Assembly (NCBI GenBank): GCA_016868315.1
Contig: VGHE01000010.1
Coordinates: forward strand, 1-64,000
Direction of reading: 5' to 3'
Length of the DNA: 64,000 nt
From: Betaproteobacteria bacterium
GTDB lineage: Bacteria; Bdellovibrionota_B; Oligoflexia; Silvanigrellales; Silvanigrellaceae
The notes under the pieces are model-generated. The model was not told the DNA's origin. It saw only the letters and a list, made by a program, of their open reading frames with translations, and ran no database searches. The translations under genes were made by a program, and so were the position numbers. This document shows, piece by piece, positions 1,274 through 40,705 of this stretch; the first letter of the stretch is position 1, and every line of letters begins with the position of its first letter.

Positions 1274-1463
1274 GTCGGTTATCCCCGTTCGCGTGCGACT
1301 GCTCACTTTCTTTACACTGTTCATGCGTTATTGCCGAGTGCGTCTCCATACCCAGTTCGTCCTCTGTAAAAAATTCTTGTTATTTCGAGGTCTTTAGTCC
1401 TGCCTGCGAGCTGGAGGTTTGTTGGCGCAGGTTTTGCTGTCCCTACGCCGGAGGGAGGGTGTT

Positions 1464-2396
1464 ATGAGCTCAGAATTTCCTATGTCATTTCCTGAAGAGT
1501 CGCAGCTGGCCTCGCTACAGCCACAGCGCAAGTCTGAGAAGAAAAGGGTTCAGCATTCCGAACGGACTTCCTCTGCCGATAGGAAATCATCAAACCGGAA
1601 GAACGTCATCCCTCTTTCCCGCCATGCAGATTCGATGCTGGCACCGATGTCGGAGATGGCAGCTGCCCCTGCGAACAACGCTTCGGGCATGGGTGATTAT
1701 CCGCTGAGTGAGTTTTCCTCCGAAGAAGGTACGACTCATTCGTCCAAGCCGCGCACTGGTCGTCGGGTTCTGCGTTCTGTGCTTGGTCTGACCTTAGTTG
1801 GTCTTTGGGTTGCCATTGCAACAGGCCATCTCCACTCAGAGCTCCCTTTGATGGAACAACTGCGGAGTCAACTCTCCCTCTCTGAACACTCTGCCGCCGA
1901 AACGTCGGCGGATCAAAACGCCACTTTACAAGCTCCATCTGTTCCCGAAGTTGTTGCAGGCGATTCGGCGGTAGTCACCAACGCTACCATGAGCTCCACG
2001 GAGCCAACGGCACAAACTGCTTTAGAGAAAAATAGCTCATCAGCGGATGCTGGAGCACCCGCGGCGAGCCAGCCGACGAGTGCTGCGTCCATTTTTGGTG
2101 AGGGAAATCTTCCCGCAACCCCTGCTGCACTAAACGCTCAGGGTGCTGCACAACCCATGCGTGTTCCACCTATTCCTGGTTCGGTGTCTTCTGCCGACGT
2201 CGAAAAGACGGCTAAACTTTTCTTAACTCAGGGTGCACAACTGAATGCCCTCGAAGAGCATCTCGCGCAGCTGTTGTTACAGCATGGTTCAGCCGAAAAA
2301 CTTGATTCTCTACTTGATTCGATGGAGCGTCGTCACAAAGATGCTCTCGAGACGATTCAAGCTCTCCGAAGTCGGGGCAAAAATAGCAAACAATAA
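1464..2396 (+). CDS. Single-pass membrane protein, low complexity, function unknown
   Basis: About 310 residues. The start ATG at 1464 follows GGAGGG at good spacing; an upstream in-frame start at 1419 lacks this. The N-terminal ~100 residues are polar, Ser/Lys/Arg-rich and predicted disordered. A single hydrophobic segment (VLGLTLVGLWVAIATG) lies near residues 115-130, so the N-terminus is probably cytoplasmic. A long Ala/Ser/Thr/Pro-rich stretch follows. The last ~70 residues form a Leu-rich amphipathic helix suited to coiled-coil pairing. No enzymatic motif is visible. A strong terminator follows directly. No family could be assigned. Confidence 0.75.
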   Translation: MSSEFPMSFPEESQLASLQPQRKSEKKRVQHSERTSSADRKSSNRKNVIPLSRHADSMLAPMSEMAAAPANNASGMGDYPLSEFSSEEGTTHSSKPRTGRRVLRSVLGLTLVGLWVAIATGHLHSELPLMEQLRSQLSLSEHSAAETSADQNATLQAPSVPEVVAGDSAVVTNATMSSTEPTAQTALEKNSSSADAGAPAASQPTSAASIFGEGNLPATPAALNAQGAAQPMRVPPIPGSVSSADVEKTAKLFLTQGAQLNALEEHLAQLLLQHGSAEKLDSLLDSMERRHKDALETIQALRSRGKNSKQ

Positions 2397-2489: not shown

Positions 2490-2515
2490 TTCGGTAATTT
2501 CCGGAGACCCTCAAT

Positions 2516-3592
2516 ATGTCAGACGTGCAGCACAGCCCCAACGTCTCTGCCTGCGAATTGCGTGCGGTGGTGATGTTTATAGATATCGAAGGGTTCTCTC
2601 GGATTGTCGGCAAAAAAGATCCGGAAACGATTTTCGCTGAATTGCGGAGTTGTCTGAGCCGAATTTCAGCGATCGTTGAGTCTCATGGTGGCCGGGTCAA
2701 CAAAACCCTTGGCAACGGTCTGCTGTGTTACTTTGCCGCAAATGAAACTCAAACAGCACCTCAAACAGATGCTCAGTTGAGTCAGCTTGTGGAGTCTGCA
2801 TTGCGCAGCGCAATTGCCATTCAGCATGACTGGGTTTCAGAGTTCTTGCGGAGTGTGCCAACGCAACAAGGAGAGACCCTCAAGAAGTGGCATGCCCTAC
2901 CTCTTCGAATTGGTCTGAATGCCGGAAGAGTTTATTGGGGGAATGGTAGCATTGATCCTTCTCGGTCTGAGTACACGGTGGTCGGCGAGACTGTGAATTT
3001 GGCGAAGCGCTTGGAGGGGTCTGCAGATATCTTCAAAGTACTGGTGAGCCCTGCGGCTAAAGCCATCTTGGATGAGTCGTCCTTACCTCTCGATTTCGGA
3101 CTTGGAGTTGTTTGGGGAAGACGCTTTCTGCAAATTAAACACCAGACGGGACTTTTTGAAGCTTGGGAGTGTAATCCCTTTGGTTCTGATCCTGAATTGC
3201 TGAAAGCTGCGCTGCGATTAATGCGGACGGGCAACAAGCGAGCCTCTTCACGTGTTCCCTGGTTGTGTGATGTTCCGCTTCAGGTCACGTTGAAGTCAGG
3301 AATTGTTGCGCGCGTTGTTGATTTCTCCGAAGCAGGTTTTTGTTTGGAATTTGAAAATCCATATACGCGCAAGGAGCAGTTTGAGGCAACGCTCAGCACG
3401 GGGCGTGCTGACTGGAACAAGGTTTTGGCGCTCAAGGGGTTGTCGCAGGTGGGCTGCGACGTTCGTTGGGTCGAGAAAGTCGGAGAGAAGCATTGGCACG
3501 GGATCGCATTCGTGGGCTTTCCACAAGAGCAGGCTCGTGCACTTTCAGATCTGTTGATTCAATTCAACAACCGTTCCCACGAGGAGATTTGA
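2516..3592 (+). CDS. Class III nucleotide cyclase domain fused to PilZ domain
   Basis: 358 residues, soluble. Residues ~14-200 match a class III adenylate/guanylate cyclase: FIDIEGFS with metal ligand D23, KTLGNGLL near 63-70, RIGLNAGRVYWGN near 131-143, and GETVNLAKRLE with transition-state residues N161 and R165. The second metal aspartate, normally GD in KxxGDA, is N67 here, so activity may be weak or lost. Residues ~240-350 form a PilZ domain with both c-di-GMP signatures, R242-x3-R246 and D269-x-S-x2-G274. The architecture suggests that c-di-GMP binding controls the cyclase domain or a partner. The last 48 bases overlap, on the opposite strand, the end of a GGDEF gene that could make the ligand. 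There are no membrane segments. Confidence 0.88.
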   Translation: MSDVQHSPNVSACELRAVVMFIDIEGFSRIVGKKDPETIFAELRSCLSRISAIVESHGGRVNKTLGNGLLCYFAANETQTAPQTDAQLSQLVESALRSAIAIQHDWVSEFLRSVPTQQGETLKKWHALPLRIGLNAGRVYWGNGSIDPSRSEYTVVGETVNLAKRLEGSADIFKVLVSPAAKAILDESSLPLDFGLGVVWGRRFLQIKHQTGLFEAWECNPFGSDPELLKAALRLMRTGNKRASSRVPWLCDVPLQVTLKSGIVARVVDFSEAGFCLEFENPYTRKEQFEATLSTGRADWNKVLALKGLSQVGCDVRWVEKVGEKHWHGIAFVGFPQEQARALSDLLIQFNNRSHEEI

Positions 3593-5068
3593 GCTCCCGT
3601 TTTGGCTTGCGAGCGTCACGCAATTCTTTCCTGCCTTTTTGGAAGCGTACATCGCAGTGTCGGCCTCTTGAACAAGTTCCTGCACTGTTTTGGCGGATTC
3701 GGGAAAGCTTGCCACCCCAATACTTGTGGTGACCTTCAGGTCAACGGCTTCGTCAACACCACTGGCATCGCGCAAATCAAATGAACGGCTTTCAAATGCG
3801 ACGCGGATCCGCTCAGCCAGGATGTGGGCACCATCGAGCGCTGTGTTGGGAAGAATGACGCAGAACTCATCGCCGCCGTAGCGAAGCAGTTGGTCGGAGT
3901 CGCGGATAATTTCGCGCAGTGTGCGCGCGGCTGCTTTGATCATTTGACTGCCCACGATGTGTCCGTGGGTGTCATTCACTGCTTTAAAGCGGTCGAGGTC
4001 AAGGAACAGCAATGACACTGGACTTCCGTAACGCTGGCTGCGAGCCACTTCCTGTGCAAGTGATACATCCATGAAACGTTGATTATAGAGACCCGTGAGT
4101 TCGTCGACGAGCGAAAGAGAATTGGCGACGTCCAGATTTTGGAAGGTTCGCGCTGCCTGCATCGTAATGGGAGACACCTGGTTAATGATTTCGAGAAGCT
4201 CGGTGCCGGTCATTCCATCTTTCGTGAGTGCAATGAAGCCACTGTTTGCTGTTGGGCTTCTGAACTCAATCACAACGAATTGTCCACACGGTGAAACTTC
4301 GGTGCGTGGCGCGATTAAGGTGACCGAATCCATTTCTGCGACGTTCTCGGGAATGGTCGCTCGATTGCGTAGAAACGGCGCGAGCGAGCGGTGAATGAGT
4401 TGGCTGGGTTCGGTTCGTCCGATGCCAGCCTGGCGCAGATCGAGAAGCAACTCTGGGAAAGATCGGTGTGCATCGAAAAAGAAAGAGAATCCTTCGCTCA
4501 CTTTGAGTTCGCGAGTGATGAGGCGCAAGTAGGTTTTGAGGAGTGCTTTTTTCTCGGAGAGGCTCGCAAGAGTTTGGGCGATGCTCAGAATGTGCACGGC
4601 GTTGGTGAGGGATTTGTTTTCGCGGAGGAGTTCGCCATGCTGCTGAGCTTTGCGCAGGGCAAGCACCAGGTCTTCCAACTGAATCGGTTTTCTGAGGAAA
4701 TCGACAGCACCTGCTTTCATGGCAGATACGGCAGTGTCGACTGTGGCAAAGGCTGTGAGTGCTACGACCGGAATGTGTGGCCAATGTTTTTGCCAACGCT
4801 CAATCAGTTCGAGACCAGTGCCATCGGGAAGCACCAGGTCGACAAGCAAAAGCTGGGGGCGAAGAGTTTCGGAGGAGTTCCATTCGTCGGCAAGATTGAG
4901 ACGTTCATTGAAAGCTTCTGCCGTCGCAAAATGCTCGACGACCGCGCCTGCATCCTGCATCCAGCGCTGATAGACCCGCGCGGTGGTGAGGTCGTCTTCG
5001 ACAAGGTAAATGCGCACGTCTTGCAGAACGCGCAGAGATTTGGAGAGTTCTGTGCTTTCGTTTGGCAT
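3545..5068 (-). CDS. Response regulator with GGDEF diguanylate cyclase output
   Basis: 507 residues. The N-terminal receiver (about 18-140) carries the acidic pair E24-D25, phosphoacceptor D77 (LLLVD) and K127 (FLRKP). The middle (~150-315) resembles a GAF-type sensor. The C-terminal GGDEF domain (~318-490) has the intact catalytic loop GGDEF at 398-402 and the product-inhibition site RDSD at 389-392, so it should make c-di-GMP with feedback control. An AGGAG lies about 11 bases before the ATG. It is the third gene of a minus-strand run aroC-holA-this gene, with 50 bases to holA. Its 3' end overlaps the cyclase-PilZ gene by 48 bases. The cognate kinase is unknown. Confidence 0.93.
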   Translation of the reverse strand: MPNESTELSKSLRVLQDVRIYLVEDDLTTARVYQRWMQDAGAVVEHFATAEAFNERLNLADEWNSSETLRPQLLLVDLVLPDGTGLELIERWQKHWPHIPVVALTAFATVDTAVSAMKAGAVDFLRKPIQLEDLVLALRKAQQHGELLRENKSLTNAVHILSIAQTLASLSEKKALLKTYLRLITRELKVSEGFSFFFDAHRSFPELLLDLRQAGIGRTEPSQLIHRSLAPFLRNRATIPENVAEMDSVTLIAPRTEVSPCGQFVVIEFRSPTANSGFIALTKDGMTGTELLEIINQVSPITMQAARTFQNLDVANSLSLVDELTGLYNQRFMDVSLAQEVARSQRYGSPVSLLFLDLDRFKAVNDTHGHIVGSQMIKAAARTLREIIRDSDQLLRYGGDEFCVILPNTALDGAHILAERIRVAFESRSFDLRDASGVDEAVDLKVTTSIGVASFPESAKTVQELVQEADTAMYASKKAGKNCVTLASQNGSSNLLVGTVVELNQQI

Positions 5069-5118: not shown

Positions 5119-6111
5119 TCAGCTCAGAAGGCCAGTGAGCTCAACAGCGAGCCAGCTATGCGCATCGCGTTGTGTTCGGGTTTGTTTTTCCAACTCTGCG
5201 GCAACCAAAAAGAATCGAGCCCATTTTTCTGGTGGCAACAACTTCGCCAGGCGTTCGACACGTGCTTGCGAGGGATAAGGGGTTTTCGCCATGTCGTGTG
5301 CCTGGCGTGACTGACTCGTTTTGGCGAGTGCGGCTTGAAAGGCAAGAACCTGGCGACCCGTATAGGCGAGCGCGGAAATCACGCTGCCCGCTTCTTCTCC
5401 GGCCTGTTCAAGTTGCCCGAGGCGCAAATGGACGAGATTTGTATCGCCACTCGAGAGCGCTTCAATGACGTCGAATGCATCTAGGCCTGTCTTAGGAATA
5501 AAGGCAGCTTCGAATGCGAGCCCACCCTTTGCCATCTGTTCGAAATGTAGATCGCATGCCTCCAGATCACCGCTATAGTGGTCGAAACAATGGTGTGCCC
5601 ATGCAAGAAGTTCTGGTTTGTTTGCCTGCGCGAGAATGCCGCCGTGACGAGGGATGAGTGTGGTCAGCAGGTTTATTGCTTCTGCTCGAGCGGGCTCATA
5701 AATCACCAGGACTTCAGCCTTCCAGGGCAGAGCTTTGGGGTCAGGAGCTCCGTGTCGGGTTGCAGCGGGTGCAAAAATATAAAGTTCCTGCCGCGCTGGG
5801 TCGCTCAAATGATTGAGCTGTGTTGTGAATTCGTTCCATTGTTTTGAGGTGATTTTTTCGGGCAACTCGATCCAGACCGGCGCAGGTGCACCAAAAAGGT
5901 CTTGGGTGGAGAGAGCCTCGACAGCCTCTTGGACAGGGTTTTTTCCTGAATGAAGCACAGCGCGTGTTCCGTGAAGGCGCAACAAGCGTTCGGCAGCCAA
6001 ACGGCGGATGAGTGTGTTGTCGGTTAGAACGATCCGCAGTCTCGCCTTTTCAGGTGTAGTTGCTGTCAGCTCCATAATGAATTTTGAAGCATCTACGCGC
6101 TGTGTACTCAT
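5119..6111 (-). CDS. holA: DNA polymerase III delta subunit
   Basis: 330 residues, the usual size for HolA, the clamp-loader subunit that opens the beta sliding clamp. The N-terminal half is Rossmann-like with a divergent, non-ATP-binding fold. The region GDLEACDLHFEQMA and the following segment with FDVIEALSSGD and the helix LVHLRLGQLEQAG match the delta lid and collar region. Sequence similarity in this family is low, so the call rests on the pattern of C-terminal helices and length. Its ATG overlaps the aroC stop by four bases (ATGA), which implies translational coupling. Confidence 0.8.
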   Translation of the reverse strand: MSTQRVDASKFIMELTATTPEKARLRIVLTDNTLIRRLAAERLLRLHGTRAVLHSGKNPVQEAVEALSTQDLFGAPAPVWIELPEKITSKQWNEFTTQLNHLSDPARQELYIFAPAATRHGAPDPKALPWKAEVLVIYEPARAEAINLLTTLIPRHGGILAQANKPELLAWAHHCFDHYSGDLEACDLHFEQMAKGGLAFEAAFIPKTGLDAFDVIEALSSGDTNLVHLRLGQLEQAGEEAGSVISALAYTGRQVLAFQAALAKTSQSRQAHDMAKTPYPSQARVERLAKLLPPEKWARFFLVAAELEKQTRTQRDAHSWLAVELTGLLS

Positions 6112-7250
6112 GCCTTATCCTTGGCTGTGGGCGTTGCTTGAGGCGACGCGAGTGTGTCTTTGCGATTGAGACGGGCGCGCAGAGCATGATCGGCGAGAAC
6201 CAGCCAGGTCATTGCTTCAATCATCGGTACAGCGCGCGGCAAGACGCATGGGTCGTGTCGTCCTTGGGTGATTTGAAGGGTGACGGGATTCCCCTGAGCA
6301 TCAACACTCTGCTGCTCTTTTTGAATCGTTGAAACGGGCTTGAATCCAACTGAAAAGACAATATCCATGCCGTTGCTGATTCCGCCCTGAATGCCGCCGC
6401 TGTTGTTGGTTGTTGTGATGATTTGCCCCGTCACCGGGTCGGCGTCGAAGGGGTCGTTGTGGGTTGAGCCGGTCATGTACGTGGATGCAAGCCCGGCACC
6501 GATCTCAAAACTACGCGAAGCGGGTAGGCTTAACATGGCCTTTGCCAAATCCGCTTCAAGCTTGTCGAAGACAGGCTCGCCCCATCCTGCAGGGGCGCCG
6601 CGCACGACACATCGAATTAATCCACCGGCCGTGTCGCCTGAGGCCATCAACTTTTCTAAATATTCATGCATGCGCGCAGCAGCTGCAGGCACAGGGACTC
6701 GCAGCGGGTGAGCATCGACCTCGGCACGGTTCAGGGGCAGGGTATCGGCAGGACATTCCAGGTGCGCGAGGCGCTGCACCCAAGCGAGCACCTCAATGGG
6801 CTCGGGGCAGATTTGTTTGAGCATCTGTTCGGCCACAGCTCCTGCGGCAACCCGTGCAACCGTTTCGCGCGCGCTCGCACGACCTCCACCGCTCTGGGCG
6901 CGGCGACCAAATTTGGCCTGGTAGGTGAAGTCGGCATGACCAGGGCGATAAGCTGCATTGCTCTGCGCGTAGTCCTGCGGGCGAACGTTGGTGTTCTCGA
7001 CCATCAGCGCAATAGGTGTTCCTAGGGTGACTCCATCTTCGACTCCCGAAAGTACGCGGACAGTATCGGGCTCTGCACGGGGCGAGGTGACCGCGCTTTG
7101 ACCGGGGCGACGCCGATTGAGGGCTGCCTGGAGCGCATCCACATCGAGCACTATGCCCGCAGGGCAGCCGTCGATACAGCATCCCACGGCCGCACCGTGT
7201 GACTCACCGAAACTGCTGACCCTGAAAATAATCCCAATATGACTTGCCAT
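6108..7250 (-). CDS. aroC: Chorismate synthase
   Basis: About 380 residues. It converts EPSP to chorismate with reduced FMN, the last step of the shikimate pathway. Visible signatures are SFGESHG near the N-terminus, the RRRPGQS segment, RASARETVARVAAGA in the middle and GGIQGGISNGMDI in the C-terminal half, all conserved FMN/EPSP-binding regions. The start at 7250 has GGAG six bases upstream; an ATG at 7262 is less well placed. It heads the minus-strand run with holA and the GGDEF regulator, and is divergent from the photolyase gene. Confidence 0.97.
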   Translation of the reverse strand: MASHIGIIFRVSSFGESHGAAVGCCIDGCPAGIVLDVDALQAALNRRRPGQSAVTSPRAEPDTVRVLSGVEDGVTLGTPIALMVENTNVRPQDYAQSNAAYRPGHADFTYQAKFGRRAQSGGGRASARETVARVAAGAVAEQMLKQICPEPIEVLAWVQRLAHLECPADTLPLNRAEVDAHPLRVPVPAAAARMHEYLEKLMASGDTAGGLIRCVVRGAPAGWGEPVFDKLEADLAKAMLSLPASRSFEIGAGLASTYMTGSTHNDPFDADPVTGQIITTTNNSGGIQGGISNGMDIVFSVGFKPVSTIQKEQQSVDAQGNPVTLQITQGRHDPCVLPRAVPMIEAMTWLVLADHALRARLNRKDTLASPQATPTAKDKA

Positions 7251-7332
7251 CTGTCGCTCCAAATCGAGAATGATGGGTTCTAGCCCGAGTTGCGGGCCGG
7301 CTCAACAGCGGCAGGTGGGAGAAGAGCAGCAG

Positions 7333-36667: not shown

Positions 36668-39600
36668 TCAACGCTGGCGCAGATCAAAGATTCCGTCCCA
36701 ATCCTCTCCAGGGGGAGCCTGTTTGTAGCGCACGGCACGGTCGAGGTACAGCGCAGCGACTTTGTCGGCAGGGTGCTCATCGAGTATCTTCTTCCACCCA
36801 TCAATTGCACTGTCCCATTGACTTGCTTGGAACGCACGGAGTGCAGTCTCGTGACGTTCGAGAGTTTTGAGTTTCATCTCACGTGTGTGGACGCCATCGG
36901 CATTAAAAATCTCTACAATGCTTAGACTGCGCGAAAACCCCGGCGGGCGGACGCGCCCCAACGAGCGGAACGAGAATTGTTTGGGATTCTGAGCTGTTAG
37001 TAACGCATCGTGGCTGGTGATCATTCCCACTGAGAAGATCTTGGTCATGGACTCAAGCCGGGAAGCGAGGTTTACGCTATCGGCTATCACAGTTCCCTCC
37101 ATGCGATCTTCGTTTCCGAGGGTTCCGAGCATCAGCGAACCAAAGTGAACTCCAATTCCGATGCTGATTGGATTACGGAAGGTCGTTTTTCTTTTGTTGT
37201 TGTAGTTTTCGAGCTCTCTGAGAAGATCGATGCCAGCGAGTAGTGCATCGTCTGGATAGTTTGCAAAAAGAGCCATGACAGCATCGCCAATGTACTTGTC
37301 GATAAAGCCACAGTGCTTTCGGATGACCGGATTGACGGTTGAAAAGTATTCGTTGAGGAAATCGAAATTTTCCTTTGGGGACATGCTTTCAGAGATCTTC
37401 GAGAATTGCCTGATGTCGAGAAACATAACTGCCATTTCTCGCATAACTTGATCGCCAAGTCGCACATCAATGATGTTTTCGCGTCCCAACAGTTGCAGGA
37501 AGTCTTGCGGGATGAAACGAGTGTAGGCTCCGTGGACTTTGGCAATCTGGAGATGGTTGCGCATGCGCGCAAGCAATTCGGATTGGGAGAAAGGCTTCAT
37601 GAGGAAGTCATTTGCACCCGCCTGAAAACAGGAAACGAGGTCATTGATTTGATTTTTTGCAGTCAAAATAATGATTGGCAGGTCGGCTGATGAATGGCTT
37701 TTGCGGATTTCATTAAGAACCTCGAGTCCTGACATGCGGGGCATCATCAAGTCGAGGAGAATGATGTCGGGGCGTGTTTCATTGAACATACGCAACCCGG
37801 TCATACCGTCCTCTGCCAGTATGATCTGGTAATCCTCCGAGCGCAGTTGGTTTTCGAGAACCTTCCGGTTAACGGTGTCGTCGTCGATGACAAGCACTCG
37901 AAACCCGCCACCCATTGTTTGCATCCGTTTCTCTGCCGAGGCATCAGCAAACTCTGGCTGTGCAGCTTCCCACCAGGCAGAGTCATTTTGCAGCATCACT
38001 GGACGCGAGCTTCGTGCGCTGCCTCCTGAGTCACGCGGAACTTGCGAGACAAGGGAGGTGTCTGGTTGCGCAGCAGGCAGGGTGAAGGAAAACTCGGAGC
38101 CTCTATCGGGTTCTGATTGAACCTGGATGTTCCCTCCGTGCATCTCTACCAGCTGTTTTGTAATAGTGAGTCCGAGACCAGTACCACCATAGACACGATT
38201 TATTTGCCCGTCGGCCTGTTCGAACGAATTGAAGATGCGTTGGAGTTTGGAAGGATGAATTCCAATGCCGGTGTCGGTAACTAAAACACGCACAAGGCGC
38301 CCCTCGTGTCTCGCGCTGATTGTGATTTGCCCTGAATGAGTGAACTTAATTGCATTTCCAATCAGATTTTGCAGAATTTGTTGCAGTCGGCCTTCATCGC
38401 ATGAGACCGCCGTCAATCCCGGTTCGACGTTGTTGATGAGCTCAACAGGTTTATTTCCCAACAGCGGCTTACTGAGAGCCATCACCAACTGAACCATCGG
38501 GCGCATTTCAACAGTTGCGATCCGCAGTTTGAGCTCGCGTTGTTTGATTTGTGAAAAGTCGAGCAGATCATTGACCAGGTTGGTCAGACGTCGCCCTGAA
38601 ATGGCGATGAGATTAAGATTTTCCCTCAGTCGGGTTGAAAGCGCGCCTTCCGAGCCAGTCAGAACACTTTCGGCAATCCCGACGATTCCGTGCAATGGAG
38701 TGCGAAGTTCATGTGAGGTGTTTGCAAGGAAGTCGTCTTTGAGTTTGTCGGCTCGCCTTAGCTCACGAATCGCATTGAGATTATCAAGCGTCAAACAGAG
38801 GGTTTGCTGTGTGACCTTAATGAAATTGCGTTCCTCGTGAGTGAGGAAAAGGCTTGAATGACATTCAAGCGACAATGTTCCCAGCCACCGTGAATCTTGA
38901 AAAAGTTGAAGTGTCAGAAATTGTCCTGAAACCTGAATGGGATCGCCATCGGGAAGAGGGTGTGTACCTTCGCGCTCCAGAGGCATGGGTAGATTTTCTG
39001 GATTGATTTCATCGCCAAGCGCAATGCTAAAGAATTTATTGATACGCTGCTTATCGGAGGGGAAAATAAGTTCGACGCGTGCTTGCGAAAGCGCTGGAAT
39101 CTCTTTTGCCATAATGCGTAGTGCTGCAAGAATTGCGGCTTCGTGTTGTGATGAACTGGCCAAAGTACGGCTGCCAACCATCAATTGTTCAACCCGTCTG
39201 CGCATGATGAGGGCATACTCATTCATTTTTTGAGTTACACTTCCGACTCCGAGCACTGCACACAGCAGTAGAACTGGAACGAGAATAATTTGTCTCCAGT
39301 CGAGCGGGTCATAAAGCATGATTCCCGACGTGCCTGTGCGCAGATCACGGAGTGATGCGAAGGCCATGAGCAGGGCTGTTGTTGTGACTAGGATGCTTCT
39401 GAAGCGGAAAAAGTAGACAGGATTGAAAAGGTTTTGGTCGGAATCGAGGTTAAGCGCAAGACTGTTTTGGTCATGAAGTGATCGATTTCTAAAGTGCGTC
39501 GAGAGGGAGTAGGCTGTCAGTATGAAAGTGGATGCACCAATAATTAGGTCAGCAAGCCTTTCGAGCTGAGGAGTTGGCGTTTTAAATGAAGTCATTGAGA

Positions 39601-40657
39601 TAATAAAAATTATATAGGTTGACGCACAGCTCGCAGCAAAAACGAGTTTGTTTCTCTGATTAGACTGCTTTGAGTGTGGATTGACCACCAGTTCAGCAAT
39701 CACATAAGCCAGCCAGAACAGTGCAGCAGTGATGACAGCTATTAGTGTCACGCGCAGGCTTGTCCACGAGATGGGTATTCCCAGAAGGTTGAATCCACGC
39801 CCGTCGAGGGCATTTTGGGTTTGTGTGAGCAAGGCCTGAAAACCACGCAAAAATGCATACCCGCTGATGTGAAACATGATGCGACTGCCGTCGAGAATTA
39901 CAGCCATCGCCGCTGCAAGCACTGGAAGCATGAGCGCAAGTAGCGTCGCTGGCAAACTGGAAGCCTGCATTTGCTGAAGAAGTTGCAGATAGGGGGTCGT
40001 TCGGCTTGGAGTCATGAGTGCCACTGGAAGTGTCTGCGGTCCAAACTGTCTTTCGAAAGAAGGAGCGATGATATCGATATTGATTTCTGCGGCTTGGATA
40101 AGCTCTTCGCGGCCGAAGGTGGTCACGGCATTCACCAGACGGCCACCGTGTTGGGTTGCTCCTGCGGGATCGGTGTAAACAAACATCAGATTTTGCGAGG
40201 TGCGCGGAATCACCAAGCTTAACAGCTGTGCATCTGCGGGTTTTCCACTTTTGATCCAGTCGAGCTCATTTATTTTGAATCTGTATTTGAGTCGTGCCGA
40301 GTTGGGAAGTTTTTTTTTGCCTGGCTTCCTTTCGATTTCGTTTAACAGGTTCGGAAAAAAGTGTTGCGTGCGCGGAAAGGTAATGTTGTTTTCATTCGAC
40401 GATATAAGTTCGCAGTGGGAAAGGGTTGTGGAGAGGTGCGGGCAGTAGTAGGGCAGGCCTTGCCATTCATCGAGTGAGATGATCTCCTTGCCTTCCTTCA
40501 AACGGGCAAGAATATTCTCAACGTTGTTGTTGCGTTGAAGATTGAGAATGAAAACCATGAAAAGTGTGACTGCAGCAATGAGCAGCACCCAAGGAAGTGC
40601 CTGCGCTGTTCTGCGCGACGACATGTGGTGTAGGATGCTCTCAAAGACTCCGTTCAC
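36668..40657 (-). CDS. Membrane hybrid histidine kinase-receiver-adenylate cyclase
   Basis: 1329 residues from GTG 40657, preceded by AGGAG at seven bases; GTG 40690 (11 codons earlier) lacks a site. Numbers below use that start. TM1 is near 22-38, an exported region of ~200 residues follows, then six more hydrophobic segments (~240-475). A GAF-like domain (~495-630) precedes HisKA with H649 (TSHELRTP), then an HATPase domain (TGIGIHPS, GTGLGLTI). The receiver has D969. A class III cyclase has D1081 and D1125 metal ligands (LDIRQFS, YIGDAVMA), K1121 and N1196/R1200, all intact; the tail has TPR-like helices. It should couple an envelope signal to cAMP. Confidence 0.93.
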   Translation of the reverse strand: MNGVFESILHHMSSRRTAQALPWVLLIAAVTLFMVFILNLQRNNNVENILARLKEGKEIISLDEWQGLPYYCPHLSTTLSHCELISSNENNITFPRTQHFFPNLLNEIERKPGKKKLPNSARLKYRFKINELDWIKSGKPADAQLLSLVIPRTSQNLMFVYTDPAGATQHGGRLVNAVTTFGREELIQAAEINIDIIAPSFERQFGPQTLPVALMTPSRTTPYLQLLQQMQASSLPATLLALMLPVLAAAMAVILDGSRIMFHISGYAFLRGFQALLTQTQNALDGRGFNLLGIPISWTSLRVTLIAVITAALFWLAYVIAELVVNPHSKQSNQRNKLVFAASCASTYIIFIISMTSFKTPTPQLERLADLIIGASTFILTAYSLSTHFRNRSLHDQNSLALNLDSDQNLFNPVYFFRFRSILVTTTALLMAFASLRDLRTGTSGIMLYDPLDWRQIILVPVLLLCAVLGVGSVTQKMNEYALIMRRRVEQLMVGSRTLASSSQHEAAILAALRIMAKEIPALSQARVELIFPSDKQRINKFFSIALGDEINPENLPMPLEREGTHPLPDGDPIQVSGQFLTLQLFQDSRWLGTLSLECHSSLFLTHEERNFIKVTQQTLCLTLDNLNAIRELRRADKLKDDFLANTSHELRTPLHGIVGIAESVLTGSEGALSTRLRENLNLIAISGRRLTNLVNDLLDFSQIKQRELKLRIATVEMRPMVQLVMALSKPLLGNKPVELINNVEPGLTAVSCDEGRLQQILQNLIGNAIKFTHSGQITISARHEGRLVRVLVTDTGIGIHPSKLQRIFNSFEQADGQINRVYGGTGLGLTITKQLVEMHGGNIQVQSEPDRGSEFSFTLPAAQPDTSLVSQVPRDSGGSARSSRPVMLQNDSAWWEAAQPEFADASAEKRMQTMGGGFRVLVIDDDTVNRKVLENQLRSEDYQIILAEDGMTGLRMFNETRPDIILLDLMMPRMSGLEVLNEIRKSHSSADLPIIILTAKNQINDLVSCFQAGANDFLMKPFSQSELLARMRNHLQIAKVHGAYTRFIPQDFLQLLGRENIIDVRLGDQVMREMAVMFLDIRQFSKISESMSPKENFDFLNEYFSTVNPVIRKHCGFIDKYIGDAVMALFANYPDDALLAGIDLLRELENYNNKRKTTFRNPISIGIGVHFGSLMLGTLGNEDRMEGTVIADSVNLASRLESMTKIFSVGMITSHDALLTAQNPKQFSFRSLGRVRPPGFSRSLSIVEIFNADGVHTREMKLKTLERHETALRAFQASQWDSAIDGWKKILDEHPADKVAALYLDRAVRYKQAPPGEDWDGIFDLRQR

Positions 40658-40705
40658 TCGTATGCTCCTGCGCAACTCAATGTGCTTCACCGTTGCTTCG
40701 GCAGG

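Follow-up and report, generated by a model that had tools for sequence, protein, structure and literature searches.

The 64,000-nucleotide stretch analysed here (the window) encodes a 358-aa protein that was described in the earlier note as a class III cyclase domain joined to a PilZ domain, with one metal-binding aspartate of the cyclase replaced. Such a protein might act as a cyclase gated by cyclic di-GMP (c-di-GMP) or might use a catalytically dead cyclase domain as a binding module, and the locus raises the question of which of these roles is favoured by its sequence, predicted fold and relatives.

The gene and its domains

The ORF is delimited exactly by its ATG (position 2516) and stop codon (3590–3592), and an in-frame stop six codons before the ATG rules out an overlooked N-terminal sensor (Table 1). 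The proposed fusion was borne out by Pfam matches to Guanylate_cyc (9e-17, residues 18–188) and PilZ (8e-5, residues 241–348), both above the curated cut-off, the latter just so. The AF2 model, built on 101 relatives in place of a poor three-sequence model (pLDDT 55), is confident over nearly the entire chain, including both domains (mean pLDDT 92, pTM 0.89). The assignment of a class III domain is common to sequence and fold, with a Foldseek match at 3.4e-13 and a VIA-align Z of 22 for the first ~225 residues against either CyaC (1wc1) or CyaB (3r5g). The listed fold matches concern the cyclase half only, and the best 60 hits in a profile search of PDB sequences are all cyclases. The PilZ half is modelled as a confident beta-rich fold with a C-terminal helix, and carries both receptor motifs, RxxxR and DxSxxG (general form (D/N)xSxxG), whole and 22 residues apart; both motifs are also kept in the two orthologues. 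These motifs, together with the predicted fold, suggest that the protein binds c-di-GMP.

Table 1. Features of the cyclase-PilZ gene and its convergent neighbour (window coordinates)
Feature	Position	Strand	Basis or remark
Cyclase-PilZ gene without membrane sensor, 358 aa	2516..3592	+	ORF; Pfam; orthologues L008, L046
GGAG, likely ribosome binding site, 9 nt 5' of ATG	2503..2506	+	Sequence reading
Class III cyclase domain, residues 14–225	2555..3190	+	Pfam; AF2 model; VIA-align
D23, first metal Asp, kept	2582..2584	+	
K63, substrate-specifying Lys, kept	2702..2704	+	
N67 (AAC) at second metal Asp position	2714..2716	+	
T154, class IIIb-type substrate residue, kept	2975..2977	+	
N161 and R165, transition-state residues, kept	2996..3010	+	
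PilZ domain, residues 239–350	3230..3565	+	Pfam; AF2 model
R242xxxR246, predicted c-di-GMP motif 1	3239..3253	+	
D269xSxxG274, predicted c-di-GMP motif 2	3320..3337	+	
Response regulator-GGDEF diguanylate cyclase, convergent, GGDEF motif intact	3545..5068	-	48 bp overlap with gene end

The active site and residue 67

Among the six catalytic positions scored, 67 is the sole changed one (motif GGRVNKTLG-N-GLL), which agrees with the earlier reading of an otherwise intact site. Of the two metal aspartates of a class III enzyme, D23 is present and the second is Asn in all three orthologues; the substrate residues (Lys and Asp/Thr in class III enzymes) are represented by K63 and T154, and the transition-state pair by N161 and R165. 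In class IIIb cyclases, a Lys/Thr substrate pair goes with ATP over GTP, and K63 and T154 point to the same preference, should this protein bind nucleotide. No compensating acidic residue was seen in the residue-67 motif; E25 was considered for that role and rejected, since it also occurs in relatives that have the Asp. That codon 67 was misread in sequencing or misassembled was likewise rejected, as three separate genomes agree; near-saturated synonymous sites beside a low dN also speak against chance.

When residue 67 was compared across homologues, as had been proposed, Asn was found in the genus clade and Asp in 108 of the 119 readable family members. The other entries in the family table (n=120) are five Asn, six other residues and one gap, the Asn-bearing proteins being the three of the window clade and two badly degenerate copies in a gene array (L065). 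N67 is common to the three known species of the genus, the three sequences that alone define the clade, and the two same-genus orthologues are 68 % and 60 % identical to the 358-aa protein. The remaining class III cyclases of these genomes (G000, G001, G002) and of G004 have Asp wherever position 67 is readable; the Asn/Arg motif of one fragment in that survey (L145) was unreadable. Because both orthologues carry N67, while most of the family and the other cyclases keep Asp, the replacement was probably a single event, in a clade that is also without the CHASE2 membrane sensor present in its closest kin.

Family, descent and constraint

The fusion is not peculiar to this gene: in the class as a whole there are about 100 longer proteins of the cyclase-PilZ type, and 41 of the 58 genomes in a phylum-wide sample contain a family match at E <= 1e-8. 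Full-length relatives are mostly ~750–850 aa long and usually begin with a membrane sensor, which is of the CHASE2 or 7TMR-DISM type in the nine long relatives scanned (that of L020 scoring below the curated cut-off). The 358-aa protein shares their domain order and is homologous to them along both domains; like both orthologues, it is short and has no N-terminal membrane sensor.

In an unrooted tree, computed without the active-site columns, the three N67 proteins form one clade (SH-aLRT 100) near two Asp-bearing proteins, a 797-aa CHASE2-cyclase-PilZ protein of G004 and a 786-aa paralogue in G002, although the deeper fork is weakly supported. In these nearest Asp-bearing relatives it is the PilZ domain that is altered: the G004 protein is without RxxxR, and the G002 paralogue has lost both motifs and gives no Pfam PilZ match. 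Such opposite losses suggest that PilZ function was kept in the N67 clade while enzyme function was relaxed. The tree, together with the state common to the three orthologues, supports descent from a CHASE2-cyclase-PilZ ancestor, one branch of which came to be without the membrane sensor and to have its metal Asp replaced. The G002 paralogue, a long CHASE2-cyclase protein encoded at L047:2192-4549 (the L009 gene), has both metal aspartates. The upstream 325-aa gene of the window (1419–2396), which lies in the same place in two relatives at 29–36 % identity, was considered as a split-off CHASE2 part; it has no Pfam match and so is unlike one.

Among the orthologues, dN is 0.25–0.38 over the full gene, and dN/dS is not properly computable, as dS is close to saturation or past it. 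Identity is 62–71 % in the PilZ domain and 55–67 % in the cyclase domain, and at six of the 41 columns that are >=85 % conserved in other relatives (62, 67, 91, 145, 159 and 170) all three short proteins deviate. Low dN beside near-saturated dS, with 67 as the only changed catalytic position, indicates that the gene is kept under strong constraint and is not simply decaying.

Tandem cyclase-PilZ pairs in a related genus

In genus g12, long relatives often sit in tandem as pairs of 7TMR-DISM-cyclase-PilZ genes, and the active-site losses of the two genes are complementary in L059, L080 and L082 (also L056, L058, L060, L069, L073, L097 and L065). L065:1880-10853 is an array of four consecutive cyclase-PilZ genes, and several active-site residues are missing from two of them. 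Counts were made by hand from the table for 18 clean adjacent pairs, which exclude the fragment L111, the pair L109 and the degenerate L065 copies, these exclusions having been chosen after the table was viewed. The catalytic Arg, in some cases with the Asn, is lost from the upstream gene in 10/18 pairs and from the downstream gene in 0/18, while the second metal Asp is lost from the downstream gene in 3/18 and from the upstream gene in 0/18; all three of the latter pairs have an Arg-less upstream gene. The losses are related by descent: on the tree there are about four groups of upstream Arg losses and a single group with the Asp loss. In mammalian cyclases, the metal aspartates are contributed by C1 and the substrate and transition-state residues by C2 (PMC4174876), and by this analogy the tandem pairs look like C1/C2-type heterodimers. 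The window protein has the downstream-gene signature, loss of the second Asp alone.

Neighbourhood and genome

The order of the gene and its response regulator-GGDEF neighbour is kept in G001 (L008), and no match to this neighbour was found on the short G002 contig (L046); a fixed functional pairing of the two is thus unsupported. Elsewhere in the window, positions 36671–40705 encode a 1345-aa histidine kinase-response regulator-class III cyclase hybrid that is conserved in G001 and G002. Since the genome (a 3.2 Mb draft) has seven class III cyclase, five GGDEF, seven PilZ and six cNMP-binding matches, both messengers are probably in use.

Interpretation

The explanation favoured here, to which about an even chance is given, is that the protein is soluble and serves as a c-di-GMP receptor, its class III cyclase domain being a pseudocyclase with crippled catalysis. 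A pseudocyclase-type receptor conserved in the genus is the most likely identity, and the protein probably works as a switch or as a partner for binding and not as a normal enzyme, its cyclase domain being retained as a dimerising and probably ATP-binding output module. In such a mechanism the PilZ domain would take up c-di-GMP via its two motifs, and the cyclase domains would pair head to tail, with K63, T154, N161 and R165 still shaping an ATP-type pocket. With Asn at 67, the two catalytic Mg ions would presumably not both be held properly, leaving turnover nil or very low, and c-di-GMP may change the dimer or affect the way in which it binds nucleotide or contacts partners, the output being a conformational change and not cAMP.

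Of the two roles considered in the earlier note, the inactive domain used for binding is thus the better supported, whereas a c-di-GMP-gated cyclase is a more suitable reading for those longer relatives that have complete sites. The preference rests on the genus-wide Asn, set against Asp in almost all relatives, and on the D71A variant of XC_0250, in which alanine at the equivalent Asp abolishes the activity of a bacterial class III cyclase (PMC3770947). Both aspartates are described as essential to metal coordination in soluble guanylate cyclase (sGC) (PMC3591389), and they coordinate the metals in mammalian cyclases (PMC4174876). Some considerations count against the pseudocyclase reading. 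Asn at 67 may differ from Ala in its effect, and may still supply a metal ligand. Moreover, D23 and the other site residues are kept more strictly than a domain serving dimerisation only would need.

The same strictness bears on the possibility that the protein is a slow or metal-shifted (e.g. Mn-dependent) adenylyl cyclase, gated by c-di-GMP and yielding a small cAMP signal: D23, K63, T154, N161 and R165 are invariant in three orthologues whose cyclase domains are only 55–67 % identical, cNMP-binding proteins are encoded in the genome, and class III sites bear some changes, in that XC_0250 is active as a guanylate cyclase although it has no canonical N/R (PMC3770947). This possibility is nevertheless regarded as doubtful, as nearly every relative, and every other cyclase of these genomes readable there, has Asp at 67, and the changes tolerated by XC_0250 are not at the metal aspartates, where D71A is dead (PMC3770947). 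Simple decay towards loss, in which nothing but the PilZ domain would still serve a purpose, is very improbable; the gene is indeed less conserved against G001 (68 % identity) than its downstream neighbours (response regulator-GGDEF, 84 %; 5119–6111, 79 %; 6108–7262, 73 %), yet its frame is intact in three species, all other active-site residues are kept, the low dN beside near-saturated dS extends to the cyclase domain, and gene order is conserved in G001.

The tandem pairs raise a further alternative, in which a C2-like subunit would lend K63, T154, N161 and R165 to a shared site with the metals held on another cyclase, c-di-GMP acting in trans. Within the data set, loss of the second Asp alone (first Asp, Asn and Arg kept) is confined to the window clade and to three downstream tandem-pair genes, whose upstream partners are without the catalytic Arg, and G002 has the CHASE2 paralogue with both aspartates (L047). 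However, no tandem partner lies beside the gene, that paralogue was found in neither G000 nor G001, and a search of G000, G001 and G002 for a partner cyclase with complementary site loss found Asp, Asn and Arg kept where readable, with the reciprocal Arg/Asn loss in no other cyclase of the three genomes (93–98 % complete, so that a missed gene is possible). Because no such partner was found in the genomes searched, the heterodimer is kept only as a rival and is considered rather unlikely. More speculative still is its fullest form, in which the protein would be a diffusible C2-like half that binds c-di-GMP and docks on a different class III cyclase, whose site it either completes or blocks, so that c-di-GMP would control cAMP synthesis in trans. 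If true, this would mean, with the tandem C1/C2-like pairs of the related genus, that heterodimeric cyclases of the mammalian type, controlled by c-di-GMP, arose in this lineage.

Comparison with known systems

A c-di-GMP sensor fused to a cAMP-type cyclase would let one messenger control the other within a single polypeptide, and no description of a c-di-GMP sensor-class III cyclase fusion was found in the literature searched, a coverage with most subscription journals outside it. The N67 clade, in which the sensor motifs are kept and one metal ligand is lost while the nearest relatives show the opposite, constitutes a natural experiment that makes it testable whether PilZ gates a class III cyclase and what purpose a metal-site pseudocyclase has.

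The closest structural likeness is to CyaC of Spirulina (1wc1) and CyaB of P. aeruginosa (3r5g), which share the fold (Z 22, rmsd 2.6–2.7 Å over 190–193 residues), the Thr-type substrate position and the Asn/Arg pair with the 358-aa protein; the latter differs in having Asn at the second metal Asp and a C-terminal PilZ domain, and is only 21–22 % identical to them. RxxxR and DxSxxG are as in PilZ receptors (PF07238), with binding predicted from these motifs; the difference lies in the effector, here a class III cyclase domain. XC_0250, of the Xanthomonas cyclic GMP pathway, is likewise a bacterial class III domain that departs from the canonical site, although it keeps both metal aspartates and has lost N/R, the reverse of the situation here (PMC3770947). 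In having lost a metal Asp while keeping its substrate and N/R residues, the protein resembles the C2 side of mammalian cyclases and the beta side of sGC (PMC4174876, PMC3591389); unlike the mammalian C1/C2 and sGC alpha/beta systems, the 358-aa protein keeps D23, and no partner subunit was found in the genomes searched. Bd1971 of Bdellovibrio also combines cAMP-type and c-di-GMP signalling in one protein, but in Bd1971 an EAL phosphodiesterase is under the control of a cAMP-sensing part, whereas in the 358-aa protein PilZ is joined to a cyclase domain (PMC6717892).
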